Below are positions 4,929 to 45,027 of a stretch of DNA of 64,000 nucleotides, piece after piece (within the stretch, counting starts at the first letter, position 1; the number at the start of each line of letters is the position of its first letter). The stretch is from NCBI GenBank assembly GCA_019637395.1, contig JAHBVR010000017.1:124001-188000 (forward strand), written 5' to 3'. The position numbers were made by a program, and so were the translations under genes. The notes under the pieces are model-generated. The model saw only the letters and a list, made by a program, of their open reading frames with translations, was not told the origin of the DNA and did not search any database. The DNA is from Vulcanimicrobiota bacterium. Its GTDB lineage: Bacteria > Vulcanimicrobiota > Xenobia > Xenobiales > JADMJV01.

Positions 4929-6389
4929 CTATCCCAGGTGAGGAAGAAAGAGTTGGCGGAGGCGTTGGAAGGGTTGGATGTGGTCGGCATGGAGGCCGCG
5001 GGGGTGGCCATCGACTCCGTGGGTTTCGGCGAACCAGGCTTTGGACTTGGTGCGGTCGGCGGCGCTGGCGGCGGGTAGGGGATGGGCATGGAGGCGTTTC
5101 TCTTCGGGGGTGAAGGCATCGTTGTTGATAGGGAAGATGACTTCGGCGACCTGGATGCCGTGGCGTTCCAGTTGTTTGGCCAGGGCGCGGGCCAGAATCC
5201 AGCCGCCCACGTCGTAGTCGACGTAGGCCAGGATACGGATGGGCCCGTTGATTCGGCTTTTGAGGTCGGTAGCCATAAATTCGCTCATGAGGGCCGAGGG
5301 TTGGCCTGAGAGCAGGCGCAGGCTGACTCCAAATTCCTGGTGAAGGCGCATTCCCCACTCGGCGAATTCGCTTTTTTCGCAGACCACGAGCGTTTCCGGT
5401 CGAGTGGTCCCAAGCAGACGGTATTCCGGGTGGGGAGCCTGGAAGCCGAATTCGCGGAAGGTGAAGAGTTCGTTGTCCAGCACGAAGTGGCTGAAGATAC
5501 GGAAGGTCAAGTCATAAAGCCTTTCCGCCGGACGGGCACCGCGGCGGAGCACAGCCTCGGGTTCTTCCGGAGGATTCCATTCCAGTTCTGGTTCATCTAG
5601 AAAACCGGCGCGGTGCAGGGTGTCTTTCAGCCATTCGTACCAAAAGCCACGGTAGCTGTTTGACCATTCCCGAGTATCACCGGTCTGGATGTAGCGCAGA
5701 CGCTGGAAGATGAGGTGGGCGATAAGCTGGCGGGCTGAGGCGAAATTGCGGCGCAGGAAGTCGGCCGGGGCCTGGTGGAGGGGAAACGGCCATTCGCGCA
5801 ACTGGTAGTTTCCGTAAAGCGCTTCGCAACGGGGTTCCAGATGTACCAGGTTGGGGAGGCCCAGACGTTCGGGCAGGCCGTTGCCCAGGTCGGTGACGGT
5901 GTAGACCTGGCCGTTGTCGAGGAGGACCAGGGCGACGGGATGGCGGCGTTGGACACGGGCGATGCGGTTGCGATTGACGTAGAGGCCTTTCTTAAGCATG
6001 ACCAGCTCCGGCATGGTCTGGGCGGCCCGGGCGGCGGAGGTCGATTTCTCGATTCGGTCGCCTCGGTCGCTTTTCCAGACGCACTGCTTTTTATGGTCGC
6101 TTTGCAAGGCGTATATGTGCCGGTTTGGATCAGGCGGCTCGGGCACGGGCGCAAGATTAGCGGGAGGGAATTCGAATCCGGCCGGGTCCATTTGGTGATG
6201 TAGGTGCTGGGGAAGGACAAGGCCTTTCCCCAGCGGCAGCCAGGGCCCGGCCGGCGGCGGAGTGGGACGGTGCGCCACCGAGCCGTTGCGATGAACCGCG
6301 CGCCAGCGATTGCGAAATTCGGGCTGGAAACTGGCGATGTCAAATTCATTCCAAAAGACCAGACCCACGGCATCTTGCAGGACTACCAT
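4929..6389 (-). CDS. TOPRIM-domain protein (Spo11/Topo VI-A-like), second of a tandem pair
   Basis: 486 residues. The C-terminal third reads as a TOPRIM fold: an Asn/Glu-type strand LVVCEKSEF followed by LAYVDYDVGG, the DxD-x-x-G pattern of TOPRIM enzymes. Upstream, SYRGFWYEWL resembles the Arg...Tyr-Tyr region of the Topo VI-A/Spo11 winged helix, but that match is weak. The N-terminal 120 residues include a Pro-rich stretch. It is a paralogue of the gene at 6383-7726: N-termini (LQDAVGLVFW against FEDYNGLVIY), the RG[FY]WY motif, the DxD motif and the C-terminal RG..AD..P pattern all align. Its ATG overlaps the stop of that gene by 7 bp, so translation is probably coupled. A nuclease or DNA-nicking role is possible. 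JetABC (Wadjet) partners are absent. Confidence 0.65.
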   Translation of the reverse strand: MVVLQDAVGLVFWNEFDIASFQPEFRNRWRAVHRNGSVAHRPTPPPAGPWLPLGKGLVLPQHLHHQMDPAGFEFPPANLAPVPEPPDPNRHIYALQSDHKKQCVWKSDRGDRIEKSTSAARAAQTMPELVMLKKGLYVNRNRIARVQRRHPVALVLLDNGQVYTVTDLGNGLPERLGLPNLVHLEPRCEALYGNYQLREWPFPLHQAPADFLRRNFASARQLIAHLIFQRLRYIQTGDTREWSNSYRGFWYEWLKDTLHRAGFLDEPELEWNPPEEPEAVLRRGARPAERLYDLTFRIFSHFVLDNELFTFREFGFQAPHPEYRLLGTTRPETLVVCEKSEFAEWGMRLHQEFGVSLRLLSGQPSALMSEFMATDLKSRINGPIRILAYVDYDVGGWILARALAKQLERHGIQVAEVIFPINNDAFTPEEKRLHAHPLPAASAADRTKSKAWFAETHGVDGHPRGLHADHIQPFQRLRQLFLPHLG

Positions 6390-15109: not shown

Positions 15110-15172
15110 CTTCCACTCCACAGTTCAATGTTTTGACACTCTTTCTTGCAGATCCTCAGTATAGTCACGGGC

Positions 15173-20954: not shown

Positions 20955-22355
20955 TTAGCGTAGCGGCCTGAACTGGCCCAGGCCAAAATGCGCGCCATAG
21001 CCGAGCGAAATAGGGCCCGGAACAGGTTTGGCGAAGGTCAACCGAAGATTGTGAATCCCTGAGGTTGGCCTGGGCCGATTCTGTCGCTGCGTTTTGAACT
21101 CACGCAAAGAAATACCGTCGATAGACCGTTCGAGAATCTCCACTGACATCAACAGACCGGATGGTCCGGAATGATTGTCCAATTCCCTGCGTATCTGGTC
21201 TTCCAGGTTCTCTCGACCCGGCTTGAGGTGGCGAGTTTGAACATAGGGGGTTCGCGATTCCCACACCGTGGCTGCGCGAAAGGCCGCAAGGCTTCTCAGT
21301 CGAGATTGGTCGAGCAATTCAACGAATTGGACCTTGAATGAGCGCTGTTGCTCCCTGTGACGGCGGCCGATGGATTGGGTAAAGACCGGCATCGCCTGGC
21401 CCGGGAAGGCTGTGCCCTGGGGAATTTTGCGATACACGATAACTTCACCCAGATGGTTGAGATCTGAAGCCGGCAGCGGAAGAATGTAGGGATGAGCATG
21501 GCCGTTCAGCAGGCCGCTACCATCCTCGTGTTTTCCCGCAAATGCTTCCCATGTTGCAGTGTCTACTCTACCCTTCAGCAGGGACAGAAAATCGGCCCGT
21601 AAGCTCGCTGCGGCAAAAAGACCGTTTGCTCTCCTGGGCCGAACGGGCTTGAGGTAGCTATAGCGAATGGCCACGGGATTAAATTCCAACAGTCTCGACT
21701 TGACAGGAGTCTGAAAGCAGTCAAGCTGGCGATGATAAGTCAGCCAACGCGACCCCGGGGGAGAACTCCATCCTTCTTTTTGCAGGTGCCCGGTTTGAAC
21801 CGTCAATTGGGACCACGTCAGCCCGCTATCGGCTCCCAAAACACGAATAGATTCGCTTTCTTCGTTTTTAGATGTGATGGAGCAGTTGGTCGGAAGGGCC
21901 GATTCCTCGGATGAAGCAGTGAGCTCGGACCAGCTTTCAGCCCGCCCAAAATAGCTGACTCCCCGCAATAGCTCTTCTAGAAGGCGAAACTGAGTCTCTC
22001 CTAGCTCAAGATGAGGCCAACGAAATACGATGACATCCAGAGTCTCCGTCCCCGTTCGCACAAAGCCGTCGAATAGGAGCTGTTTGTCGTTGGGCTGGGC
22101 CTGCGGAAAATATTGCCTGGTGTGAGCGGCGCTGGCTGCAGGTAGATGAAATTCCGGAGGGCTGGAGAGAACGCGCACAAGGTCCAATACCTGCTCTAAG
22201 TCGAACTGGTCTGGATTGCGATAGTAGCTGGCCGCCAGCGCGCGCAGGAGCCTCCACGGAGAAGGTGGCCATTCCGGCTCACCTTCTCGAGGATGGCGGT
22301 CCCAGGGCGTAGCGTGATAACGCCCCGCCAGGAGACGAATGGAAATTTCCAGCAT
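20955..22355 (-). CDS. csb2: Csb2, Cas5-Cas6 fusion subunit of type I-G Cascade
   Basis: 466 residues. The N-terminus, LEISIRLLAGRYHATPWDRHPREGEPEWPPSPWRLLRAL, spans positions 2-40 and is diagnostic of the GSU0054/Csb2 family. The C-terminal part ends with the Gly-rich RAMP loop YGAHFGLGQFRPL. In type I-G systems this protein combines the Cas5 role (holding the crRNA 5' handle) with a Cas6-like role (cutting the repeat hairpin). It is the last gene of the cas3-cas8g-csb1-csb2 operon, 4 bp after csb1. The strong repeat stem and its compensatory variants in the array fit a structure-specific processing enzyme. Confidence 0.92.
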   Translation of the reverse strand: MLEISIRLLAGRYHATPWDRHPREGEPEWPPSPWRLLRALAASYYRNPDQFDLEQVLDLVRVLSSPPEFHLPAASAAHTRQYFPQAQPNDKQLLFDGFVRTGTETLDVIVFRWPHLELGETQFRLLEELLRGVSYFGRAESWSELTASSEESALPTNCSITSKNEESESIRVLGADSGLTWSQLTVQTGHLQKEGWSSPPGSRWLTYHRQLDCFQTPVKSRLLEFNPVAIRYSYLKPVRPRRANGLFAAASLRADFLSLLKGRVDTATWEAFAGKHEDGSGLLNGHAHPYILPLPASDLNHLGEVIVYRKIPQGTAFPGQAMPVFTQSIGRRHREQQRSFKVQFVELLDQSRLRSLAAFRAATVWESRTPYVQTRHLKPGRENLEDQIRRELDNHSGPSGLLMSVEILERSIDGISLREFKTQRQNRPRPTSGIHNLRLTFAKPVPGPISLGYGAHFGLGQFRPLR

Positions 22356-22359
22356 CCCT

Positions 22360-23289
22360 TTAGACTCGCGTTACAGCCGGGTCGGCAAAGTGGGCCTTAC
22401 AACCGGCTACGGTGGCGGCGAGTTCTTGGGCCAGGTCTTCCAGACCCGGAAGGGACCAGTCTTTCGGACGTCTCGCTCGAATGGCCCCCTGAGTTTTCGA
22501 TTCGTCTACTTCGAGGTCGCAGGCCGTCCGGAAGCGCAGCCCGGATTCGAGCACTGCTCGGATTTTGTAGAGAGCCAGTATCACAAGAAAGCGGTTGGCT
22601 TCCTCGGGCAAGCCATAGCTACGCAAGAGATGCAGGTCGAGGTTAAAAAATGCGGTGATCTCGGCTGCTGAATACTCGGTTCGAGAAAAGGGGATATGAC
22701 CCGTTCCCTTTTCCGCTTCCCCTTTGGCACTGATGCGATCAAGCTTTACCCCTCCGCTGGCCACCAAAGCCGCGTCTTTGGCTTCTACGAAGCTTGAAAG
22801 TAAACGAGGTAGGCGCAGCCGTCCATCTTCGAGCTGGGAAAGGAAGACGCCGTGGAGAATGCAGTTGGGATCGAGCCGTAGCAACTCCCGGGCAAAGGCC
22901 ACCACGTTTACCGGGCTGGTCCGGCTATATTGAATCTTGTCGCCTACGCTTTTGCGCAGAGAATCTGGAAAGTAGCCGGAATTGAGCCTGTGCGATTCCT
23001 CGATGGAGGAAGTCTCGTGGCCCGGAGCTGTCGTGACGATATAGGGAATTCCCTGGGCAGCGGAAATCAATTCCCGCTTGGCCGAATCCCAAATCGTCGC
23101 TTCAAGGCGATTGGCCATCGATTGAGCCGATTCCACCAAGACAGCCTCGCCGCTGCCCGGGACCCGATAGCTGGCGGCGCCCAGGTCGGGAAATCCGGTT
23201 GGTTGAAACCGTGTTCCCTGAACAGGTTTGAGTGGAACGTCTAGCAGCAGTCGCGATTCAGTTTTCATCCAGGAAAGATCAATGGACAT
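22360..23289 (-). CDS. csb1: Csb1, Cas7 backbone subunit of type I-G Cascade
   Basis: 309 residues of the GSU0053/Csb1 family. The recognisable N-terminal block (LKPVQGTRFQPTGFPDLGAA, ESAQSMANRLE) is followed by SIEESHRLNSGYF and the core LLRLDPNCILHGVFLSQ. The C-terminal half contains LRSYGLPEEANRFLVILALYKIRAVLESGLRFRTACDL (positions about 223-260). Cas7 proteins polymerise along the crRNA spacer. Its ATG overlaps the cas8g stop by 11 bp, supporting translation from one mRNA. Length and order match other type I-G operons. Confidence 0.92.
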   Translation of the reverse strand: MSIDLSWMKTESRLLLDVPLKPVQGTRFQPTGFPDLGAASYRVPGSGEAVLVESAQSMANRLEATIWDSAKRELISAAQGIPYIVTTAPGHETSSIEESHRLNSGYFPDSLRKSVGDKIQYSRTSPVNVVAFARELLRLDPNCILHGVFLSQLEDGRLRLPRLLSSFVEAKDAALVASGGVKLDRISAKGEAEKGTGHIPFSRTEYSAAEITAFFNLDLHLLRSYGLPEEANRFLVILALYKIRAVLESGLRFRTACDLEVDESKTQGAIRARRPKDWSLPGLEDLAQELAATVAGCKAHFADPAVTRV

Positions 23290-25435
23290 GAGCGTTCTCC
23301 TTTGAATTTTTATCGTCGGCTTTAGGGAAGGCCTGGTTGACCAGTCTCCTCCATAATTCTCTAGAAATCGGGATGGCCAAACTGGCAGCCAGCCTCGGCG
23401 GATCTAGCGAATTGTTGCGCCCTTTTAGTGCTGGTGGCCAGCTTTTGCCGATCAAGAAACGGTCACACTCCATCAGACCATCGGGCTGATTCGCTGCAAG
23501 CCGCTCCACGATGGTAGACGGAGCAAGCCAGTTGCTTGACTGCTCCGTCGTGCCATCCCTTGGCTCGTAAGGACTGAAGGCGACCTTTAGCTTGCAATAA
23601 TCAATGGGCAGCCGGTCGCTTCCTGTGATGGTGGCCTTGGGCAAATCCTGATTGGGCAGACGAACGAGCAGCAAACCGAGTAAATTGGCCTCGATCAGTG
23701 AATCATCCGTCCTCTCGTAGAGAAAATTCTCGATGTCCTCAGGGCGGACCAACGCGGAAGTTCGACTGCCAAACCTCCAGCGCTGCAGTGCCAGGCCGGT
23801 CAGACTGTTGCCGCAGTCCACAGGCTGGTAGATAAACCTGCGCTTTAGCAGTCTTGTAAGGTTCCCGGGTAAGCGATCCTTGCTCCAGATCGCGTTGCGA
23901 CTTTCATCCTGCCAGTTATTTTTAGTAATCGGCTCGATAAACTCGCGCACCTGCTGCAGTCCGCGAACCGCCATGGCCAGGCGAAGCTCGCTGGAATACC
24001 CCGGTGCCGGCCACCAGGCTTCGCTCAAGCGGGGGAGGGGAGCAACATAGAGCTCAGGGGTATTGCGTTGATGAAGCTTGGGCATTTTGCCCAGTTGGCG
24101 GTGAATCGACCCAAGCACTCGAAGAATGGGCATCAGGTCGTTACTGCCACTCCCGCGACAAAGTCCCAAAATAGTGTCGTCTAGTTGGCGAAAGAGACTG
24201 CGAACGGTTGCACCACCGTGCGCTTCGATTTTCCGGCGGTAGCGCCGTAGCCAGGGATCAAGTTCGTTTAGGAGGTCAACCGCTCGCCGATCGCCGCCCC
24301 CGCGAATTCGATAGCGCCCAGCTGGAGTGGCGAAATAGCTCTTGCCATTGCGTACCAGAAAGGTGTAGCGCTCAAAAGCTTGGAATCCGCGCTCTACGCC
24401 CAGGCTGGCAACGGCCCTGGCGAAGTCTACCCCGTTGGCCGCCTGGCGCCCACCGACTTGGGCCCTGCCTTCAGCGAAGACCGCCTTAAGTTCCAACCAG
24501 GAAATCGGGGCACCCCAGGTTGGTAACCACATTTCGCAGCGCGCCTTATCGGCTTCGTTACTGGAGATGGCTGAATGACCGCCCATGCTAGGGTCGACAG
24601 TGAATGGCAGACTGAAGCCTTGACTGTCATCGCCCAAGCGCCGAGTCGCGGCTGCGGAAAAAACCATTGAGCCTTCAAGAGCCAACACAAAGTCCCAGGG
24701 GTTCACGTTGGGGTTGCCGTCAAAGCCTGAAGTCGTGTTCGGTCCACCAGCAGAGCCTGGCGCGTACTGGCCAATTGCCGTTTTTTCCAGCCCTTTGCAG
24801 CTTTCGTCGAAAAGTGCCTGTCGGATGAGGATTTCCACTCGGCCGCGCTGCTTGGAGGAACATAGAAGGAGCTCGACCAGATTCTGGGCGTAATTGCTGG
24901 ACAGATCGAGTCTTCCGTCGTTTCCTCCTGTGCCGAGCAGCGGGACCATTTCCAAGCGATCCTCGTCGCCAATCACGCAAGCTGCGTCCAGCCATTCCAA
25001 GGCTTCGGGGCTGGTCAAGTTGCTCCGCAGAGCGCGCATCAACCGGGGTTTAGCAATCTTGGGTTCGGGTTTGTCTCTTAGTCCCAGGTGCTCTAGCTCT
25101 TTGCGACATTCCTGAAGTGTCTTACGATAGGCCTCAAATCGTGGAGTTTCCTCGGCGGCAATCCGCTCAAGAGCTTTCTTGGCGGACTTGTCGTTGGGGA
25201 AGTAGCCGCTGCCTCCATTCCAAGGCGAAGTGATTGGAGTGGGCTGATATTCGTTCAGTAGCCAATCCGAGAGCTGTTCCTTGGACAAGTTTGTGGTCAA
25301 AATGGCCAGATCATCCCGCCAGGAAAGCATAGCCTTGGGATCCTTTTGCTTCGTCACCAATCGAAAAACACCCAGTGCCTTCAAGTATGAGGCTAGAGGC
25401 CGAACCCGGCAGCCGCCCAACTCCAGTTCATTCAT
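23279..25435 (-). CDS. csx17: Cas8g (Csx17), large subunit of type I-G Cascade
   Basis: 718 residues. The opening LGGCRVRPLASYLKALGVFRLV is the Csx17 signature. Other family-like blocks are SPWNGGSGYFPND, LLGTGGNDGRLDLSSNYAQNL, and the region around GFDGNPNVNPWDFVLALEGS. Large subunits recognise the PAM and stabilise the R-loop. ATG 25435 overlaps the cas3 stop as ATGA. Its place between cas3 and csb1 and its length are normal for type I-G. Confidence 0.92.
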   Translation of the reverse strand: MNELELGGCRVRPLASYLKALGVFRLVTKQKDPKAMLSWRDDLAILTTNLSKEQLSDWLLNEYQPTPITSPWNGGSGYFPNDKSAKKALERIAAEETPRFEAYRKTLQECRKELEHLGLRDKPEPKIAKPRLMRALRSNLTSPEALEWLDAACVIGDEDRLEMVPLLGTGGNDGRLDLSSNYAQNLVELLLCSSKQRGRVEILIRQALFDESCKGLEKTAIGQYAPGSAGGPNTTSGFDGNPNVNPWDFVLALEGSMVFSAAATRRLGDDSQGFSLPFTVDPSMGGHSAISSNEADKARCEMWLPTWGAPISWLELKAVFAEGRAQVGGRQAANGVDFARAVASLGVERGFQAFERYTFLVRNGKSYFATPAGRYRIRGGGDRRAVDLLNELDPWLRRYRRKIEAHGGATVRSLFRQLDDTILGLCRGSGSNDLMPILRVLGSIHRQLGKMPKLHQRNTPELYVAPLPRLSEAWWPAPGYSSELRLAMAVRGLQQVREFIEPITKNNWQDESRNAIWSKDRLPGNLTRLLKRRFIYQPVDCGNSLTGLALQRWRFGSRTSALVRPEDIENFLYERTDDSLIEANLLGLLLVRLPNQDLPKATITGSDRLPIDYCKLKVAFSPYEPRDGTTEQSSNWLAPSTIVERLAANQPDGLMECDRFLIGKSWPPALKGRNNSLDPPRLAASLAIPISRELWRRLVNQAFPKADDKNSKENAHVH

Positions 25436-27768
25436 ACGGCCACCACTTGTTTCTGTTGGCTCTCCGCCTTACTGGCTCGCACGTCAGCACTGCGAATGAG
25501 AGATTCTAAGAAGCCCAGTCGGAAAACGCCATAGTCTGGATTCTCCACCAGGCCATAGAGCGTTCTGACCCAACTCAGGCGGTGGCCGAGCCCCAAGACC
25601 TCCAGGTCCAGCGTGGTCTCGGCGATAGACAGGCCACCCCAGGTGACCGCTGGTAGCTGGTCCCCCGTCTTTACTCCCCGAATAGTGTGGCCTTTGGAAT
25701 GCTCGACTTGCAATTGTTCTTGTGGAATGGGGCGTACTGAGAATCGAATTTTCCCGTGGTGGACTGCTACCAGGAAAACAACCAGCGGATTGACCCCAGT
25801 CTGGAGTGCGGCCAGAGCGCTAGCGAATTCGTGTCTGAACCCTTTCCGGTAATGTTTTCCACCCATCTTACTCTTGCCTAAAAGCGGAAGCGGCTTCAAA
25901 TCGCCTGCCGGCAAACGATACATCGTCCCTTGGAAAACATCGTGTGCCTTGCCGTAGTCATGCCAAAGACAGGCCAGTAGCAGGGAGTCATTGGGTAGCT
26001 CCAGGGATTGCAGGCTGGCGAGCAATGCTTGCATTTCTCGGTGGACATTGAGGGTATGCTCTTCGAGCGTGAGGTCGTAGCCGCCCAGACGATCAGAATC
26101 GTAGCCTTTGGCGCGGTCAGGTTTAGCTACAGGCTGGACGTTACCTTTGTATTCCTTACCGAATCCGAGGTCGCAGTCGTAACCGCCGGAGCTGGCCTTC
26201 AGGAGGTACAGTTGACCGGCCTTCAAGCGATTACGGTCCACGGTTTCCCAGAGTTCTTCACCATAGTTCCAACGAAAGGCCTGACGGTCACCCCCCAGAA
26301 ACGTCCTCAAGTCCGAAAGCGGCACATTACAAAGTTCCTCGCGAAGCGGCAGGCCTTCGGTATTCGTCCAGCCTTCGTCGCAGCGCCTCCAGAAAACTTG
26401 GGCATCCCGAGTATTGGGCTCGCGAATGTAGCGGCTGATATCGATGTCCTCGCCGGCTAAATCGCTGGTTGTCTCAAAAAGCTCTCGTAGGTCCTTATGT
26501 CGTAACACCACGTCGCTGTCTGACTCATCGCCAAACCCATTGATCTGTCGTAGACAAGCTGGAGAAGCGTCAGGAATCGTGTGTATTATAGAGGCACAGG
26601 CCTCCAGTTGTTCTTGGTCATAGGGAAGTAGAGCATCTTTCAAGTCGATCCAGAAGGCTAAACCCCCTTCGGGCTCTTGACCGTCCCGATTGCATCGCCC
26701 CAACCTCTGGACCATCGAGGAAAAAGGACATAGTTCGCTGATCAGCAGCCTGGCCGACAGGTCGACTCCGGCCTCCACTACCTGGGTTGAAACAATCACA
26801 GCTCCACCAGAACCTGGATTCTTCTGAAGTTCGGTTAGAGCGGCTTCCTTGGCTGCCCGCTCGGGAGGACGGAACCTGGAGTGGAGGAGTAGCAGGGCGG
26901 GCGCTTCCGGTTTTCCTTTCAGGTGTTTCTGCAGAGCGCGATAGACCTCCACTGCTCTGTCTACCTGATTGACGATGATGAGACTCAGCGAGTCGGCGGA
27001 ATGATGCCCAAGGGCAAACTCTGCCACGCGCTTGGAATAGTCTTTTTTGGTCTCCTTGTTGAGCTCAAATGGTGCTTTTTGCAGGCTTTTGGGGGCGTTC
27101 ATTCGACGAGCCAATGAGGAATAGCTCAGATCTGCGGCGGACAATTCCTGAAGAGTTGAAGGTGCTGACCGATCAACGGTGGCCAGCCAATCCGGTTCTA
27201 GTGTGGCGCTCATCCACAGAGTCCGGGTGCTTCCGTAAACCTGTTCTCGTTCGCGGAAGGCCTGAAGCTGGACCGAAGTCGCTCGAGCCACGCCCATAAT
27301 TTGCACCTCGTCAAAAACCCACTGAGCATCGTTGTGCAAAAGCCCGAAGGGAACTGACCATCGATACCGGCTCATAGCGTAGCCCCGGTTCAAAGCGCGG
27401 GATAGCAGCATGTCCTGGGTTCCTACCAGGATGGCTGGCTCGGCCGGCGCCAGTTCCCACTCTTCCTCCAGCACGCCTCCCATCAGTTCGTAGACCTTGT
27501 AGCGCTCTGAAAGACCAAGTTTCTTGACCCAGCCCCGGGCATTGTCCACCGTCTGTTTGACCAGAACTCGCATTGGTAGACAAAAGACCAGACGAGTCGC
27601 CCCGGATTTTCTATGCTCGCGCGAGTAAAGCCAGGAGAGAATCACCGCAGCGGTCTTCCCCGCACCGGTAGGTACTCGCAGCACCTCAGGCCAATCCTCT
27701 GCAAGCCGTTGCTGGTAAGGATACGGCGGATGCCCGGTGGCAGACTGAAAAAATTGGGAATAGTTCAA
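25432..27768 (-). CDS. cas3: Cas3 helicase with C-terminal HD nuclease (type I-G)
   Basis: 778 residues from TTG 27768. The DExH helicase comes first: YPYQQRLAEDW, Walker A VPTGAGKT (about 32-39), DEVQ box in WVFDEVQIMG, motif III MSATL, and motif VI QRLGRCNRDG. The HD nuclease is C-terminal (about 570-760): EEHTLNVH, WHDYGKAHDVF and VAVHHGK. This helicase-then-HD order is typical of type I-G. An upstream frame to 27915 exists, but GGAGG at 27774-27778 sits 5 nt before the TTG, and the extra residues come from a perfect hairpin and a regulatory palindrome, so they are not coding. First gene of the effector operon. Confidence 0.92.
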   Translation of the reverse strand: MNYSQFFQSATGHPPYPYQQRLAEDWPEVLRVPTGAGKTAAVILSWLYSREHRKSGATRLVFCLPMRVLVKQTVDNARGWVKKLGLSERYKVYELMGGVLEEEWELAPAEPAILVGTQDMLLSRALNRGYAMSRYRWSVPFGLLHNDAQWVFDEVQIMGVARATSVQLQAFREREQVYGSTRTLWMSATLEPDWLATVDRSAPSTLQELSAADLSYSSLARRMNAPKSLQKAPFELNKETKKDYSKRVAEFALGHHSADSLSLIIVNQVDRAVEVYRALQKHLKGKPEAPALLLLHSRFRPPERAAKEAALTELQKNPGSGGAVIVSTQVVEAGVDLSARLLISELCPFSSMVQRLGRCNRDGQEPEGGLAFWIDLKDALLPYDQEQLEACASIIHTIPDASPACLRQINGFGDESDSDVVLRHKDLRELFETTSDLAGEDIDISRYIREPNTRDAQVFWRRCDEGWTNTEGLPLREELCNVPLSDLRTFLGGDRQAFRWNYGEELWETVDRNRLKAGQLYLLKASSGGYDCDLGFGKEYKGNVQPVAKPDRAKGYDSDRLGGYDLTLEEHTLNVHREMQALLASLQSLELPNDSLLLACLWHDYGKAHDVFQGTMYRLPAGDLKPLPLLGKSKMGGKHYRKGFRHEFASALAALQTGVNPLVVFLVAVHHGKIRFSVRPIPQEQLQVEHSKGHTIRGVKTGDQLPAVTWGGLSIAETTLDLEVLGLGHRLSWVRTLYGLVENPDYGVFRLGFLESLIRSADVRASKAESQQKQVVAV

Positions 27769-27773
27769 AACGT

Positions 27774-27778
27774 CCTCC
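27774..27778 (-). promoter_or_regulatory. Ribosome binding site that decides the cas3 start
   Basis: GGAGG read on the minus strand, 5 nt before TTG 27768. addA starts the same way (GGAGGAG then TTG 36525). It rules against the longer cas3 frame that begins at 27915. Confidence 0.75.
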
Positions 27779-27860
27779 GCTGAGCCTGCGATTTCGCACG
27801 GCTGAGAAGCTGTTCCTTCATCCACCGGAACAACTCTTGCAACCAATTTAGCCGCTGACC

Positions 27861-27877
27861 GCGACAAAAACGGTCGC
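27861..27877. promoter_or_regulatory. Regulon operator, site 7 (cas effector operon)
   Basis: GCGACAAAAACGGTCGC, matching GCGACA-N5-TGTCGC with one mismatch. It is 93 bp upstream of the cas3 TTG. It overlaps the base of the hairpin at 27876-27921 by two bases, and on the minus strand its centre is the T-run that follows that hairpin. Confidence 0.65.
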
Positions 27878-27921
27878 AGCCGTGGGTGGTGGGAAGAAAT
27901 CTTCCCACCACCCACGGCTGC
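27876..27921 (-). terminator. Perfect 22-bp hairpin upstream of cas3, terminator-like
   Basis: Arms 27876-27897 and 27900-27921 are exact reverse complements separated by AA. The stem is GC-rich with a Gly-codon-like GGGTGGTGGG core. On the minus strand it is followed after five bases by TTTTT, inside operator site 7. It could end transcripts coming from the small gene or the pseudo-repeat upstream, or act as an attenuator for the cas operon. A role as a palindromic insertion relic is not excluded. Confidence 0.5.
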
Positions 27922-27973
27922 AAAAGTGGACCGGAGTTGGACAAAGAACTCGTTCTAAGCCCACCTATGCACA

Positions 27974-27998
27974 GCTTCAATTGGGCCGGCCCACAAAC
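27974..27998 (-). repeat. Degenerate CRISPR repeat upstream of cas3
   Basis: On the minus strand this reads GTTTGTGGGCCGGC then CCAATTGAAGC. The last 14 bases (27974-27987) are identical to the 3' end of the distal repeats of the array, and the rest matches the loop and right stem with a few differences and one gap. A second weak match to the repeat 5' end (CCGGTCCACTTT, from 27934 downward) begins exactly 39 nt later; array spacers are 35-40 nt. The arrangement is pseudo-repeat, pseudo-spacer, partial pseudo-repeat, in the same direction as cas3. Confidence 0.6.
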
Positions 27999-28031: not shown

Positions 28032-28427
28032 TTACGCTGACTTTCGCGTCTTCAGGGCGTCAAGTCTCGATGAAAACGACTTGGAAAACCTGTTCCAGTC
28101 ACGTAAAGGAATCTCGGTTGTATTTGTAGTTTTTCCGGATTGATCGACGAAGGTAAGGACGGGATCAGAGCCGCTTCGACTGCGCATAATATGGACGGTC
28201 TTGCCACCACGTGAACGTCTCCCCAGGATAGAGGCCGGCGATGCGTTGAGGTCGCTTTCTTGAAGCCATTGGTTAAAGCTGGCACGGGTAAACGAAGCGA
28301 ATACCGTCGCTCTGCCAGATTGATGCACAGCTCTAAGCCAGACAGTTTCGTTGACTTCCGCGATTTCTAAGAAAAATGGACGACCAGAAGAGATGCCTCT
28401 GCCGGCCAGGGTGGTTGTTTTGCTCAT
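28032..28427 (-). CDS. Small unknown protein upstream of the cas operon
   Basis: 131 residues from ATG 28427, with AAGGGA 8-10 nt upstream. The N-terminus is Thr/Gly-rich; the middle has WLRAVHQSGRATVFASFTRASF and a basic Ser/Arg patch (ILGRRSRGGKT); the C-terminus is basic (RLDALKTRKSA). The composition suggests nucleic-acid binding, but no family is recognised. It is the last gene before the effector operon in the same direction, 263 bp ahead of cas3, with the pseudo-repeat and hairpin between. It is not a standard type I-G gene. Confidence 0.6.
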   Translation of the reverse strand: MSKTTTLAGRGISSGRPFFLEIAEVNETVWLRAVHQSGRATVFASFTRASFNQWLQESDLNASPASILGRRSRGGKTVHIMRSRSGSDPVLTFVDQSGKTTNTTEIPLRDWNRFSKSFSSRLDALKTRKSA

Positions 28428-28679
28428 AATTGTTCCCTTCAAGAGGAGTTTGCTCTCAGGGTAGAACTAAAACGTTATAGAGGTTCAAGCCATACCTTGA
28501 ATCCGGGTCACGACTTTGCAGAGTCAGTGGCCCTTTTTGCTTTTAATATATTATCATGATTTGTCAAGCCAAGTGAAGCCAACCTATACACAGAACGTTG
28601 TTGGCTAAAAGAAGTCCAATTCCCTGTTACGGCTTTGTCTTCCGGAGGGCTTCCCAATGATGAGTCAGAACGAGGGCCA

Positions 28680-29756
28680 ATGCTCAATAGCCTGCAGCTC
28701 AAGGGCTTTCGCTCCATCCACTCCCTCGGGTTGGAGTTGCGGCCCTTGAATATCTTAATCGGCGCCAACGGGGCCGGCAAAAGCAATCTGATCGCTTTCT
28801 TCAAGCTGCTCAACGAAATGACAGCCGGGCGCCTTCAGGAGCACATCGCTCGCACGGGGCGGGCTCGCTCGCTGCTTTACCGTGGACCTCAGGTAACTCC
28901 ACAACTGGAGTTCCGACTGGCCTTTTCGGACGATCAAGCTGAGAGTGAGTATCACGCCAGGCTCTTACACGCCTCAGGTGATACGCTGGTCTTTGCTCAG
29001 GAAACGCTGGCTCTTCAAGGGGCTGGGCGCCCGCGTAAAGATGTCGAACTGGGAGCAGGCCATCTGGAGAGCGCGCTCAGCGCGAAACAGGGCCCTGAGA
29101 AGGGTTTTCGCAGCCTGCTTTCCCAGTGCCGAGTCTACCACTTCCATGATACCAGTGACACGGCGGCGATGCGGGGGTTTTGTTATGTTCACGATAGGTG
29201 GCCACTCATGCCACAGGCGCAGAACCTGGCCGCCTTCCTATATGGTTTGCGCGAGAGCCAGTTCGACTACTATGCTCGAATTCTCACGACCATTCAGTTA
29301 GTGGCGCCGTTTCTAGAAGACTTTGTGCTTGAGCCTCAGGCAAACGACATCATCCTGAACTGGCGAGAGCGTGGTTCAGATTTGCTTATGGGTCCGCATC
29401 AGTTGTCTGATGGAAGCTTGCGAGCCATTGCGCTGATTGCGCTTCTGCTGCAACCGGAGGATAAGCTGCCCAAGATGATTGTGGTGGACGAGCCCGAGTT
29501 GGGACTGCATCCCTATGCCTTGGAAGTGATTGCTTCCTTGTTCGACAAGGCTTCGGTCCACACCCAGATACTGCTCAGTACGCAGTCGAGCAATTTCTTG
29601 GACCACTTTGAGGCGGAAGATGTGATTGTCGCAGAGCGCAATGGAGACGGTTCCCGCTTTCATCGACTGGACCTGGAGCAACTGGAAGCCTGGCTGGAAG
29701 GTTACAGCCTCGGCGAAGTCTGGCAGAAAAATCTCATCGGCGGAGGGCCGCAGTAA
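28680..29756 (+). CDS. AAA-family (OLD/AbiL-like) ATPase
   Basis: 358 residues with an ABC/SMC-like ATPase layout: LQLKGFRSI, Walker A IGANGAGKSN, a helical middle region, a signature-like LSDGSLRAIALIALL, Walker B MIVVDEPELGLHP, and the switch region LSTQSSNFLDHF. Such ATPases pair with TOPRIM or RloB-like proteins in anti-phage modules (OLD, PARIS, AbiL). The next gene follows after 2 bp and is DUF4276, which supports a two-gene defence unit. ATG 28680 starts at the conserved MLNSLQLKGFRSI; a longer frame to 28635 lacks similarity. Confidence 0.85.
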   Translation: MLNSLQLKGFRSIHSLGLELRPLNILIGANGAGKSNLIAFFKLLNEMTAGRLQEHIARTGRARSLLYRGPQVTPQLEFRLAFSDDQAESEYHARLLHASGDTLVFAQETLALQGAGRPRKDVELGAGHLESALSAKQGPEKGFRSLLSQCRVYHFHDTSDTAAMRGFCYVHDRWPLMPQAQNLAAFLYGLRESQFDYYARILTTIQLVAPFLEDFVLEPQANDIILNWRERGSDLLMGPHQLSDGSLRAIALIALLLQPEDKLPKMIVVDEPELGLHPYALEVIASLFDKASVHTQILLSTQSSNFLDHFEAEDVIVAERNGDGSRFHRLDLEQLEAWLEGYSLGEVWQKNLIGGGPQ

Positions 29757-29758
29757 GA

Positions 29759-30442
29759 ATGCCGAGACTCTATGTCTTTGCCGAGGGCCAGACAGAACAA
29801 ACCTTTGCTAACCTTGTTCTGAGGGACCACCTGGCCTCTTTCGGCGTTTACCTTCAGCCTGCTGTTTTAATTGCCCACGCCCGCAAGAAGGGCAAGACCC
29901 ACCGCGGTGGAGGGCGACGCTACCAGCCACTCCGCAAAGACGTGGAAACCTTCCTTCGCCAAGAGAAATCTAACGACGTATTTTTCACCACCATGATTGA
30001 CCTCTATGCCCTTTACTCCGACTTCCCTGGCCAGCAGGAAGCCGCCAAACTGAGCCACCTGCCCTACGAGCGGGTGAAGTTTCTTGAGAGCGCCTTTCAT
30101 CAGGATTTGGGAGGAGATCCAAGGCTCATCCCTCACCTGCAGTTGCATGAATTCGAGGCTTGCCTTTATTGCAAACCCGAAGCCTTCGTTGGCTTTTATC
30201 CAGGCACGACAAGAGAAGTGGGCGAGATCCGGGCAATTGCGGAGGCTTACGATAGTCCGGAACTCATCAACGACGGCCAGCATACAGCCCCCAGTAAACG
30301 GATTGCCCAGCACTTCCCCGACTATCTGAAGGCGAAGTCAGTTGTTGGCCCGGCGTTGGCGGCTCAAATCGGCCTTTCTTGCATCCGGGAGCGCTGCCCT
30401 CACTTTGATTTGTGGTTGACGCGGTTGGAGACATTGGTGTGA
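29759..30442 (+). CDS. DUF4276 (RloB/AbiLii-like) protein, partner of the AAA ATPase
   Basis: 227 residues. The start LYVFAEGQTEQTF has the conserved Glu of DUF4276. Further family marks are FFTTMIDLYALYSDFPG (Asp), LIPHLQLHEFEACLY (paired acidic residues) and TAPSKRI. The pattern resembles a TOPRIM-like metal site, so a nuclease activity is plausible but unproven. It is 2 bp downstream of the ATPase. In known systems the ATPase senses infection and the partner is the effector. The pair sits between the two halves of the CRISPR locus. Confidence 0.82.
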   Translation: MPRLYVFAEGQTEQTFANLVLRDHLASFGVYLQPAVLIAHARKKGKTHRGGGRRYQPLRKDVETFLRQEKSNDVFFTTMIDLYALYSDFPGQQEAAKLSHLPYERVKFLESAFHQDLGGDPRLIPHLQLHEFEACLYCKPEAFVGFYPGTTREVGEIRAIAEAYDSPELINDGQHTAPSKRIAQHFPDYLKAKSVVGPALAAQIGLSCIRERCPHFDLWLTRLETLV

Positions 30443-39493: not shown

Positions 39494-41149
39494 GTGATCC
39501 AACTTGAACTTGAATCCATTCCGGCGCGGATCGTCAATCAGTACACTTATTGTCCGCGCCTGGCCTATCTGGAATGGGTCCAGAAGGAATGGGCCGATAA
39601 TCTTTATACCCAAGAAGGCTCTTGGGCCCACCGGGTGGTCGATGCGGGCAACGGAAAGATTCCCGACTCCGAAGAGCCGGTTCGCACCCGCTCTCTGGAA
39701 CTGGCTGCTCCGCGCCTGGGCCTGGTCGGTAAATTGGACATGGTGGAGCTGGGTCGAGGCGAGGCGGAACCGGTTGAGTATAAGCGCGGGCGGCGGCCGA
39801 AAAGCGGGGAAGTGGCTGAAGACTGGGATCTTATGCAGCTGGCGGCGCAGGCCCTGCTCTTGCGCGAGAACGGCTGGAAATGTGAGCGAGGGTTCTTCTA
39901 TTTCTGTGAAAGCCGGGAAAAAGTTTCCGTAGAATTGGACGACCAGTTGCTGGCCCGGGTGGAGGAAACCCTGGCCGAGATGCGGACTCGTTTTGAGCAG
40001 CCCCTCGCCCCGGAGCCGCTGGTGGCCAGCCAGAAGTGCGGCGGATGTTCGCTGGTGGGAATTTGCCTTCCGGATGAAACCTGGCGCTTAAAGCAGGGAG
40101 CTAAGCCTGATAAGACCCGCCGCTTGCTGGCTCCCAAAGACGACGCTCTGCCCCTTTATCTGACCACCAACGGGCTGAGCGTGGGAATCAACGGGGAGCT
40201 GCTGGAGATTCGCGAGAAAGGCAAAGCGATCGACCACAAGCGCTTTCTGGATATTTCCCATCTCTGCTTGATGGGTAATATTCAGGTCTCCACCCAGGCG
40301 GTGCGGCACCTGTCGGCGCAGGGCATTCCGATTTGCTATTTTAGCTATGGAGGCTGGTTCAGCGCGATGACTCAGGGGATGAGCCATCGCAACGTGGAGC
40401 TGCGGCGGGCGCAATACCGGGCCGCCTTTGACCCGGTCGCCTGTCTTGGATTGGCCCGGCGCTTTGTTTCCACCAAGATTCGCAATGGGCGCACTTTTCT
40501 GCGGCGGAATAATCGCAGCTTTCCCGACTCCGGCCTGAAAGAGCTGAAACGGCTGGCCCTGGCGGCCGAAAGGGCGGAAAATTTGCCCACTTTGTTGGGA
40601 TTGGAAGGAATGGCGGCGCGCATTTACTTTCAGGCTCTGCCGGGAGCGGTGAAGAACCGTGCTTTTTTGGAAGGGGGAGGGTTCGACAGCGGAGCCCGCA
40701 ATCGCCGCCCTCCCAAGGATCCGATGAACGCGCTACTGTCGCTGGCCTACTCTCTGCTGACCAAGGAGATGAGCGTGATCAGCCACGCCATTGGCTTCGA
40801 TCCTTTTCAGGGCTTCTATCACCAGTCTCGTTACGGCAAGCCGGCGCTGGCGCTGGACGTGATGGAGGAATTCCGCGTACTGATCGCCGACTCGGTAGTG
40901 CTGAGCGTGATTAACAACCAGATGGTCACGCTCTCGGATTTCGACTGTTACCAGCACGGGGTGGTGCTGAACCAGGCCGGACGCCGGGCGCTGATCGGAG
41001 CCTTCGAGAAGCGGATGGAGGAAAAGGTCACCCATCCCTGGTTTGATTATCGGCTCACCTATCGGCGCATCCTCTATGTGCAACTCCGCCTGCTGGCCCG
41101 TTACCTGTGCGGAGAGATCGCCGAGTTCCCGCCCTTTGTGACCCGATGA
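39494..41149 (+). CDS. cas4-cas1: Cas4-Cas1 fusion (spacer acquisition)
   Basis: 551 residues. The Cas4 part (about 1-200) has four cysteines, C20 and C182-x2-C185-x5-C191, for an iron-sulfur cluster, and nuclease residues in LVGKLDMVEL and PVEYKRGR. The Cas1 part (about 215-551) has Glu371 in LGLEGMAARIYF, His443 in FYHQSRYGKP and Asp455 in LALDVMEEF. Such fusions are typical of type I-G; Cas4 trims and selects PAM-containing prespacers and Cas1 integrates them. GTG 39494 follows GGGAGG by 5 nt. It overlaps cas2 by 4 bp (ATGA). Confidence 0.95.
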   Translation: MIQLELESIPARIVNQYTYCPRLAYLEWVQKEWADNLYTQEGSWAHRVVDAGNGKIPDSEEPVRTRSLELAAPRLGLVGKLDMVELGRGEAEPVEYKRGRRPKSGEVAEDWDLMQLAAQALLLRENGWKCERGFFYFCESREKVSVELDDQLLARVEETLAEMRTRFEQPLAPEPLVASQKCGGCSLVGICLPDETWRLKQGAKPDKTRRLLAPKDDALPLYLTTNGLSVGINGELLEIREKGKAIDHKRFLDISHLCLMGNIQVSTQAVRHLSAQGIPICYFSYGGWFSAMTQGMSHRNVELRRAQYRAAFDPVACLGLARRFVSTKIRNGRTFLRRNNRSFPDSGLKELKRLALAAERAENLPTLLGLEGMAARIYFQALPGAVKNRAFLEGGGFDSGARNRRPPKDPMNALLSLAYSLLTKEMSVISHAIGFDPFQGFYHQSRYGKPALALDVMEEFRVLIADSVVLSVINNQMVTLSDFDCYQHGVVLNQAGRRALIGAFEKRMEEKVTHPWFDYRLTYRRILYVQLRLLARYLCGEIAEFPPFVTR

Positions 41150-41521: not shown

Positions 41522-41643
41522 AGGGGTTGCGAGCGGGCTTCTGAGGGGGATTCAAGTTTCGGGGGGTTGGTGGGGGAGGTGAAGTGACCCGCTCGCAGAA
41601 TGCCCTCAGGATGCCGGAGCCACCGTGCTTTGCGAGGGGGGCG
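41522..41643 (+). promoter_or_regulatory. CRISPR leader with interleaved inverted repeats
   Basis: 122 bp between the terminator and the first repeat; it is G-rich, unlike AT-rich leaders. Two inverted repeats interleave: TGCGAGCGGG (41528-41537) with CCCGCTCGCA (41588-41597), and CTGAGGG (41541-41547) with CCCTCAG (41603-41609). The partners are 60 and 62 bp apart. Leader polarity is inferred from adjacency to cas2, the degenerate repeats at the far end and the ATTGAAGT/C repeat 3' end. No clear -10/-35 is seen. Confidence 0.6.
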
Positions 41644-44600
41644 CCGATCCGCGGTTTCTGACCGCGGCCCAATTGAAGTGACACTGATTCTCATCTTCGT
41701 CTCCCAATGGACCCCAGCCGATCCGCGGTTTCTGACCGCGGCCCAATTGAAGTAGGATATGGACCTTTTCGATCAGCGGGTCGCCGTCGGGCCGATCCGC
41801 GGTTTCTGACCGCGGCCCAATTGAAGTGGAGAGCTGGCTTTGCTATGCGGCCAATATTTCGCACCCGATCCGCGGTTTCTGACCGCGGCCCAATTGAAGT
41901 CCGAGACACCGCCCAAAGAATCGTTGACCTCCTGCGCCGATCCGCGGTTTCTGACCGCGGCCCAATTGAAGTCTCCGCGGATAGGGGAGTGGTGATGGCC
42001 AACTTGTGGCCGATCCGCGGTTTCTGACCGCGGCCCAATTGAAGTTTCTTCGGTCAACGCCCTGCCGGTCGGGGTGACCAGCCGATCCGCGGTTTCTGAC
42101 CGCGGCCCAATTGAAGTCAAGACGCCATCAAGATCGCGGGAAAGATGTGCCCGACCGATCCGCGGTTTCTGACCGCGGCCCAATTGAAGTTCAAGACCTT
42201 CGGTTACCAGGCGATTTCTGACGAAGCCGATCCGCGGTTTCTGACCGCGGCCCAATTGAAGTCAGTCTCGACCTGGCGCCCGGCCGGCCACCAGGTGGGC
42301 GTCCGATCCGCGGTTTCTGACCGCGGCCCAATTGAAGTCGAAGGCGCCTGCCCAGGCCCGGCGGTTGCGCCGGTTGCCGATCCGCGGTTTCTGACCGCGG
42401 CCCAATTGAAGTCTGGCAGTTGTGTCCGGGGCGCTGACGGGGTTGTTACCCGATCCGCGGTTTCTGACCGCGGCCCAATTGAAGTCCGAGCCTTTGCGTC
42501 GAAGGAGTAGCCTCCGGCGGTCTCCGATCCGCGGTTTCTGACCGCGGCCCAATTGAAGTGACGTATCCAACAAGCCGTACGATGAGGTGCGCCAGCCGAT
42601 CCGCGGTTTCTGACCGCGGCCCAATTGAAGTAAGGTCATTCACGGGCAGAAGTATACGACCAGTGCCGCCGATCCGCGGTTTCTGACCGCGGCCCAATTG
42701 AAGTAACGCTCAATACCAGCAGCGCCCAGTGCCCAAAGAAGCCGATCCGCGGTTTCTGACCGCGGCCCAATTGAAGTACCTCAACCGTGACATGCTTGCC
42801 GGCGTTGAAGCTGCCGATCCGCGGTTTCTGACCGCGGCCCAATTGAAGTAAAAACTCTTCCTCGGTCCACGATTGCGCCTGGAAGTCCGATCCGCGGTTT
42901 CTGACCGCGGCCCAATTGAAGTAATAACTGCCCCACAGTTTCCACATATATGAGGGAACCGATCCGCGGTTTCTGACCGCGGCCCAATTGAAGTTTGCGC
43001 GCAAAACCAACCTGCCCCAGAAGACGATCACCGATCCGCGGTTTCTGACCGCGGCCCAATTGAAGTCACCATTCCCGCCCATTTCTCCTCACTCAGATGG
43101 ATACCGATCCGCGGTTTCTGACCGCGGCCCAATTGAAGTTTCCAGGGACTGCCGAAGCGGGGGAAGATACTCGGCCAGCCGATCCGCGGTTTCTGACCGC
43201 GGCCCAATTGAAGTTAGCTCATCTGAGCCCGGGCCTCGGTGCGCCCGTTACCGATCCGCGGTTTCTGACCGCGGCCCAATTGAAGTAAGGAGATCAAAAA
43301 GCTCTACGGCGCGGCCTGGGATGCCGATCCGCGGTTTCTGACCGCGGCCCAATTGAAGTAGAGCTATTTTATTGCTGACGTGGCTGGGAAGGCGACCGAT
43401 CCGCGGTTTCTGACCGCGGCCCAATTGAAGTATCGAAATGTTTGTTCCGGCTTTAATTCTCGCGGCACCGATCCGCGGTTTCTGACCGCGGCCCAATTGA
43501 AGTTTGCTTTGCTTCCAGGTTGGGGCTCTGTGCTTTCCCGCCGATCCGCGGTTTCTGACCGCGGCCCAATTGAAGTATCAAGGGTGCCGCTCTCTGTCTC
43601 GCTGAAGCCGACCGCCGATCCGCGGTTTCTGACCGCGGCCCAATTGAAGTCTCATGGAGGACAGGAGGTTTGCAATGCCGTCGAGCCCCGATCCGCGGTT
43701 TCTGACCGCGGCCCAATTGAAGTTAGCCCTTTGGCAGAACCTCCCTCCAGGCCTTGCCTGCCGATCCGCGGTTTCTGACCGCGGCCCAATTGAAGTGAAA
43801 AAGCACAGCGTATCAAGTATGGCCTCGACCAGCCGATCCGCGGTTTCTGACCGCGGCCCAATTGAAGTACCGTTTTTGTGTCGAAGGAGTAGCCTCCGGC
43901 GGTCTCCCGATCCGCGGTTTCTGACCGCGGCCCAATTGAAGTACGGAGTCTGATAACAGTCTTGGATTTGCTTGGTCCGACCGATCCGCGGTTTCTGACC
44001 GCGGCCCAATTGAAGTAAACGGACAGTTCCCCGACAGGCCGAGGGTCCAAGCCGATCCGCGGTTTCTGACCGCGGCCCAATTGAAGTCACAAATACACAA
44101 GCGTAACAGCCCCTGCATCACTAACCGATCCGCGGTTTCTGACCGCGGCCCAATTGAAGTTAGTATGGCTTTTTTCGTTTTTACCGATCAAAAACCCCGA
44201 TCCGCGGTTTCTGACCGCGGCCCAATTGAAGTCCTATAGAGGGGGGTTATGATCTTTTTCGATTCCGCTTCCGATCCGCGGTTTCTGACCGCGGCCCAAT
44301 TGAAGTGACTGGATGGGAGGGAGATACCGATCCACCTGCGAGGCCGATCCGCGGTTTCTGACCGCGGCCCAATTGAAGTTAATTCGAATTACAGCGAACA
44401 CCAAGATAAGCAATTCAGTCCAGCGCGGCGGAGGACCTTCCGATCCGCGGTTTCTGACCGCGGCCCAATTGAAGCATCACCATGAAGCAGAGTTGCACGT
44501 CGGCTTGGTCCCGCCGATCCGCGGTTTCTGACCGCGGCCCAATTGAAGCAACGTCGCTGACGGGAGCGGACTCCGGCATTGCCTCACCGATCCGCGGTTT

Positions 44601-44915
44601 CTGACCGCGGCCCAATTGAAGCGCCAATTGATCGTGCAGTTGGCTGCCCCCACCGAGGCCGATCCGCGGTTTCTGACCGCGGCCCAATTGAAGCCGCGTG
44701 ACGCCCACCGAGGCCACCTTCGGCAGCAAACTCCGATCCGCACTTTCTGAGTGCGGCCCAATTGAAGCCGGGAGACCCTGGCTATACGTCCATCACCCTG
44801 GTAGGCCGATCCGCACTTTCTGAGTGCGGCCCAATTGAAGCCGCTGTGTCAAATCCGCTATGGGTCCGGCCGTACGCCGCCGATCCGCACTTTCTGAGTG
44901 CGGCCTAATTGAAGC
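41644..44915 (+). CRISPR. Type I-G CRISPR array, 45 repeats and 44 spacers
   Basis: The repeat is 36 bp: CCGATCCGCGGTTTCTGA then CCGCGGCCCAATTGAAGT. It folds as a 7-bp stem CCGCGGT/ACCGCGG with loop TTCTG. Repeats 1-38 (41644 to 44379) end in T. Repeats 39-45 (from 44440) end in C. The last three (44733, 44806, 44880) carry stem CCGCACT/AGTGCGG with both arms changed together, and repeat 45 has one more C-to-T change. Spacers are 35-40 nt, except spacer 38 (44380-44439), which is 60 nt. Two spacers (42486-42523, 43869-43906) share 26 identical bases. The distal end is the older end. Confidence 0.98.
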
Positions 44916-45027
44916 GGCTTTTCTCCTCGGTCTACTGGTCAATCTGCACAGGGGAGATCAGGCTCACTTACCCTTTGGCTAGGCCATACCAATTTGGCGG
45001 GTGGGATCTCTCGATAAGAGGCGACGC

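Follow-up and report, generated by a model that had tools for sequence, protein, structure and literature searches.

INTRODUCTION

Spacers that are partly complementary to the promoters of cas or cargo genes, along with crRNA-like elements, mini-arrays and standalone repeats, were reportedly surveyed by Shmakov et al. in 2023, and Liu et al. are said to have described CreR in types I-B, I-E and V-A in the same year. CreR are cas-regulating RNAs derived from mini-CRISPRs (reviewed in PMC12737573). CreTA/CreA modules are found in haloarchaeal type I-B and Acinetobacter type I-F systems (PMC8501985, PMC10097628). The psiR1 repeat of creA keeps the 5' handle and psiR2 keeps the hairpin, and forms of creA with one repeat are also known (PMC8501985). 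In CrePA, a KilA-N protein toxin is repressed by Cascade-CreA (PMC12737573). The PAM of type I-G systems is TTN, and type I-G Csb2 yields an 8-nt crRNA 5' handle (PMC9638904).

To our knowledge, such guide-like RNAs are known for types I-B, I-E, I-F and V-A, and a type I-G case is undescribed. The two main surveys (Shmakov 2023, Liu 2023) aside, no type I-G guide-like regulatory RNA is mentioned in the literature that we compared. Here we analyze a candidate for such an RNA in a type I-G locus.

RESULTS

The type I-G locus and its array

The DNA analyzed was a 64-kb stretch (the window) of a 7.66-Mb genome. Profile assignments identified a complete type I-G CRISPR-Cas system. The minus strand contains cas3g, encoding the helicase-nuclease (25432–27816, start approximate; TIGR02621, 701 bits), csx17/cas8g (23279–25435; TIGR04113), csb1/cas7g (22360–23289; TIGR02570) and csb2, a cas5-cas6 fusion encoding the crRNA handle maker (20955–22355; TIGR02165). 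The cas4g-cas1g fusion (39494–41149; NF049935) and the CRISPR array from which the canonical repeat CCGATCCGCGGTTTCTGACCGCGGCCCAATTGAAGY was taken (41641–44930) are on the plus strand. Isolate SZAS-1, assigned to the same genus, is the closest relative to share this locus.

Leader-distal repeats at the 3' end of the array (44720–44930) have the stem CCGCAC...GTGCGG instead of CCGCGG...CCGCGG; as both arms are altered jointly, the hairpin is preserved. A single spacer of nearly 60 nt, the others being about 35–38 nt, is present at 44349–44440, near the GAAGC to GAAGT repeat switch. Two spacers, those behind the repeats at 42455 and 43838, have the sequence GTCGAAGGAGTAGCCTCCGGCGGT in common, which suggests that they derive from overlapping stretches of one target, or of related ones, acquired at different times. 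Elsewhere in the window, short palindromes of the form GGCGCGACAA...TTGTCGCGC lie between genes at 15170, 30801, 39408 and 39446, with a related sequence after a hairpin at 27876; these could constitute a small dispersed element.

A degenerate repeat and guide upstream of cas3

The first-pass annotation of this DNA had noted a degenerate repeat with a spacer-length tail on the minus strand upstream of cas3, at 27935–27998. Our analysis resolved exactly this segment into a degenerate CRISPR repeat, psiR1 (27974–27998, minus strand), and a 39-nt guide, psiS (TGTGCATAGGTGGGCTTAGAACGAGTTCTTTGTCCAACT; 27935–27973, minus strand). Aligned with the array repeat GTTTCTGACCGCGGCCCAATTGAAGC, psiR1 (GTTTGTGGGC-CGGCCCAATTGAAGC, 27998–27974) requires one gap and matches in 22 of 26 columns, with 15 exact bases at its 3' end. 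Its last 8 nt, ATTGAAGC (27981–27974), are the type I-G crRNA 5' handle, and psiS starts immediately thereafter. As the annotation also stated, psiR1 shares its GAAGC end with the oldest array repeats: GAAGT terminates the first 38 repeats and GAAGC the leader-distal ones. The genome contains seven copies of the 14-mer GGCCCAATTGAAGC: six belong to the array and the seventh is in psiR1, on the cas3 strand. The reversed pattern, used as a control, has 0 occurrences. psiR1 was also the top repeat-like site in the window outside the array, with a local score of 34. The runner-up scored 31; because this background is so close, repeat similarity by itself is inconclusive, and we dropped it as the sole proof of psiR1. 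Position, strand and target raise psiR1 clearly above chance. The psiR1 hairpin is only 4 bp, so cleavage by Csb2 is not assured.

A possible second repeat, psiR2 (CCGGTCCACTTTTGCAGCCGTGGG compared with CCGATCCGCGGTTTCTGACCGCGG), follows the guide at 27911–27934 on the minus strand, and its 3' part overlaps the hairpin described below. This candidate is weak. It has 14 of 24 ungapped matches (27934–27911), with a chance of about 0.02 after allowing 15 offsets, and a gapped comparison with shuffles did not reach significance (735 of 2000).

The guide matches a site at the operon promoter

The first 17 nt of psiS, TGTGCATAGGTGGGCTT, match the site TGTGTATAGGTTGGCTT (28592–28576, minus strand) at 15 of 17 positions, with mismatches at positions 5 and 12. 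The site lies about 600 bp upstream of the guide, over the −35 region of the operon promoter and directly behind TTC (28593–28595, minus strand), which by its sequence fits the type I-G PAM TTN (PMC9638904). The −35 element of the promoter-like site, TTGGCT-16-TATATT (28545–28572, minus strand), is within the protospacer; a full protospacer of 36 nt would span 28592–28557 and cover this predicted −35. Beyond the first 17 nt, the match of psiS was no better than chance. The target is the sole exact site for TTN plus the guide pattern in the 7.66-Mb genome, and sites with 2–3 mismatches were at background, as judged with a reversed control pattern. Of the promoters that the first-pass annotation had put forward as targets of a partly matched guide, the putative cas promoter has a genome-unique match, and the promoter at 39.4 kb has none. 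A scan found no promoter-like site between the guide and cas3. Only the minus strand showed promoter-like hexamers around the target. From the gene order, we infer that the minus-strand promoter at the target is the promoter of cas3 itself.

The region between the targeted promoter and cas3

The first gene behind the targeted promoter has an ATG start and encodes an orphan 131-aa protein (28032–28427, minus strand). SZAS-1 encodes a 43% identical homolog at the same location. The protein has no Pfam, PADLOC, PHROG or PDB family, and database comparison assigned it neither to KilA-N nor to any toxin family. A third candidate homolog (G044, L082) was rejected; the similarity is weak and apparently out-of-frame over a ribose-phosphate pyrophosphokinase-like gene. 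The 5' leader of the 131-aa gene (28428–28536, minus strand) contains three hairpins, the last of which pairs with the Shine-Dalgarno sequence. The same three hairpins are found in SZAS-1 (positions 5286–5394 of its locus, L011), and this conserved leader appears by itself to be a structured regulatory element.

A perfect hairpin of 21 bp, followed shortly by TTTTT, separates the guide from cas3 (27876–27921, minus strand) and was a terminator-like match in our scan. It is the only perfect hairpin of at least 15 bp in the 64 kb (energy −50.5, z −10.6). Searches of Rfam gave only below-threshold chance matches, mostly of microRNA models on the hairpin. Equivalent long and perfect hairpins lie between guide and cas3 in SZAS-1 and in one further locus described below (L015). 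In SZAS-1 the guide region (L011 5780–5870) also contains a terminator-like stem and then nine T residues, as if the second repeat had been turned into a terminator. The 21-bp hairpin is likely to be a 3' end or a site of RNA processing or attenuation. Given the hairpin and the T-run, transcription from the putatively repressed promoter may not reach the cas genes.

Recurrence in other type I-G loci

About 30 other type I-G loci were examined for a handle-like motif upstream of cas3 and then, separately, for a PAM-flanked site matching the sequence that comes after the motif. Five loci had both the handle motif and a match to their own promoter: L011 (SZAS-1), L015 (Roseomonas genomospecies 6), and L042, L045 and L046 from other genomes of the window's phylum. 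Guide-target pairs were scored at 15 positions (1–5, 7–11 and 13–17) behind TTN, with positions 6 and 12 ignored. In the six loci, the window included, the guide scored 13–15 of 15 against a TTN site 5' of its own operon. Shuffled guides typically scored 8–9 of 15, and 0 to 2 of 20000 shuffles per guide were as good as the real one. Against the promoters of other loci the guides reached only 7–10 of 15, except in the sister pair L045/L046, which cross-matched. Among the 633 TTGAA[G/A] motifs in all fetched loci, scores of at least 13 occurred only at these places and at two spurious weak ones. Guide sequences vary from locus to locus, but each has a TTN-flanked match at the promoter of its own locus.

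In type I complexes, the bases at positions 6 and 12 are flipped out of the crRNA-DNA duplex. These positions were mismatched in 11 of 12 cases (p ~1e-7 to 1e-9 versus even decay of a duplication), an excess that is partly due to selection because the scoring skipped them. A plain duplication would have decayed outside positions 6 and 12 as well.

Two arrangements were apparent. In L042, L045 and L046 the promoter, guide gene and cas3 are in direct succession with no intervening gene, an order typical of a simple autorepressor. The window, SZAS-1 and L015 instead have a small gene separating the targeted promoter from the guide; in L015 this slot is occupied by a different, 52-aa ORF. The target is direct relative to the guide and covers the −35 in the window and L015, and it is inverted, with the PAM adjoining the −35, in the other four loci. 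The SZAS-1 target (L011 5206–5241) and the predicted start of a divergent gene for a 573-aa helicase-like protein overlap, and repression there might act both ways. The partial second repeat proposed by the first-pass annotation, weak in the window, is unmistakable in L042, L045 and L046, where psiR2 has kept the hairpin and lost the handle and psiR1 keeps the handle.

Conservation in relatives was only partial: five other type I-G loci have self-consistent guide-target pairs, and most do not. About 25 of 31 loci are without the element upstream of cas3, indicating that it is not a universal part of type I-G systems. An unbiased scan for guide-target pairs in the remaining type I-G loci found no convincing pair upstream of cas3. 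The handle-like motif of L058, for which no target was found, serves as a negative control. The carriers fall in three separate clades of the Cas3 tree, implying that the arrangement was gained several times or often lost. One type I-G locus was found in a plasmid (Embleya) and none in viral contigs.

DISCUSSION

Our analysis supports the CreR/CreA-type reading of this element. The combination of a target at the operon promoter with recurrence, using different guides, in five other type I-G loci suggests that psiR1-psiS encodes a CreR/CreA-like RNA acting as a repressor of its own type I-G operon; we assign this reading a probability of about 0.75. An interaction between guide and promoter, which is common to this reading and to one in which a cargo gene is controlled, is very probable. 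As the guide matches the control region of its own cluster, the immune complex probably uses psiS to lower expression of its own genes and not to cut invaders. A CreR-like RNA is also the simplest reading for both layouts.

We infer transcription, processing, binding and repression, as well as the reading of cas3 from this promoter, and propose the following mechanism. Transcription of psiR1-psiS would start at the promoter near 28560 and proceed along the minus strand, taking in the 131-aa gene and at least part of the cas3-csx17-csb1-csb2 operon. Cleavage of psiR1 by Csb2 would leave ATTGAAGC as the handle, and the RNA would start ATTGAAGC-TGTGC, with ATTGAAGCTGTGCATAGG as its processed 5' end. 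The Csx17-Csb1-Csb2 complex would take up this RNA, and the first 17 nt of its guide, except positions 5 and 12, would pair with the TTC-flanked site over the −35 of the same promoter. The resulting partial R-loop would block RNA polymerase, so that the operon represses itself, and the pairing would be too limited to license Cas3. Repression would end once the complex is drawn away by array crRNAs or anti-CRISPRs.

The small gene between promoter and guide in three loci makes control of a protein, as in CrePA, the main rival explanation. The guide would then serve to silence the 131-aa gene or its structured leader RNA, a toxic or dormancy-inducing product would be released upon loss or inhibition of the complex, and cas3 would have its own promoter or be expressed by readthrough only. 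The targeted promoter does read the 131-aa gene first, with the same placement in SZAS-1 and the 52-aa ORF in L015, and a strong hairpin parts the guide from cas3 in all three of these loci, the SZAS-1 guide region itself being a terminator-like stem plus nine T residues. Moreover, protein-toxin CrePA and CreTA are already known (PMC12737573). However, the 131-aa protein has no toxin family or other known domain, and L042, L045 and L046 lack a gene between promoter and guide, indicating that the device does not depend on a cargo gene. We consider this explanation possible but unlikely. It is similarly doubtful that the 131-aa protein belongs to a novel class of CRISPR-repressed effectors, silenced by the type I-G complex; equally tentative is its release on inactivation of the complex (e.g. 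by an anti-CRISPR) through a leader that masks the ribosome site. In that case the L015 ORF would fill the same slot as a second cargo, unrelated to the first.

The remaining explanations are far less probable. The divergent AAA ATPase and DUF4276 genes (28635–30442, plus strand) match the HEC-01 candidate defence pair according to PADLOC, and the target is 40–80 bp from the divergent start, so the guide might control this pair if its promoter shares the intergenic region. This is highly unlikely, as the divergent neighbors vary (a 573-aa helicase-like ORF in SZAS-1) while the guide-cas3 unit is constant, and the promoter-like hexamers are on the minus strand only. The poor psiR2 and the handle of the old-repeat type would suit a decayed, functionless repeat-spacer unit, the dead array remnant that the first-pass annotation expected in the absence of a transcript, of a partial target and of the element in relatives with the same operon. 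Instead, the self target exceeds chance: a unique match flanked by a type I-G PAM lies at the operon promoter, and the same logic recurs with different guides in other loci, making a remnant very improbable indeed. Least credible is an ordinary local duplication of no regulatory meaning; guide and target are direct repeats in the window and L015, but they are inverted in L011, L042, L045 and L046, the mismatches are concentrated at positions 6 and 12, and handle and PAM are present in every case.

The predicted autorepressor shares several features with described systems. As with CreR, a degenerate repeat and guide reside within the cas locus, outside the co-resident array, and the guide has limited complementarity to the putative cas operon promoter behind a PAM, from which autorepression is predicted. 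The window element differs from CreR in being type I-G, in its 17-nt match in three blocks of five and in the small gene between promoter and guide. Two degenerate repeats flank the spacer in CreR, a trait that is clear in L042, L045 and L046 and weak (about 0.02) in the window. Similarities to CreTA/CreA include the division of handle and hairpin between psiR1 and psiR2 (clear in the same three loci), the TTC PAM with pairing at positions 1–5 and 7–11, the location upstream of the cas operon, as in H. hubeiense, and the order promoter-gene-guide. In the window, the position of CreT behind the targeted promoter is taken by the structured leader and the 131-aa ORF; unlike in CreTA, the intervening gene encodes this protein and not a known tRNA-sequestering mini-ORF. 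The protein gene behind a putatively repressed promoter is reminiscent of CrePA, except that its product has no KilA-N or other known domain. The standalone repeat and partly promoter-complementary spacer also resemble elements that Shmakov et al. 2023 reportedly surveyed.

A CreR/CreA-like RNA at this locus would mean that CRISPR systems of type I-G, the type I subtype studied least, also control themselves through guides, and that they do so in separate lineages. Matching in three blocks of five implies that the type I-G complex, too, skips every sixth base. A simple scan for the handle, TTN and positions 1–5, 7–11 and 13–17 detects such candidate RNAs with almost no false matches, and the loci with a gene between promoter and guide may offer a route to proteins whose expression reports CRISPR health.
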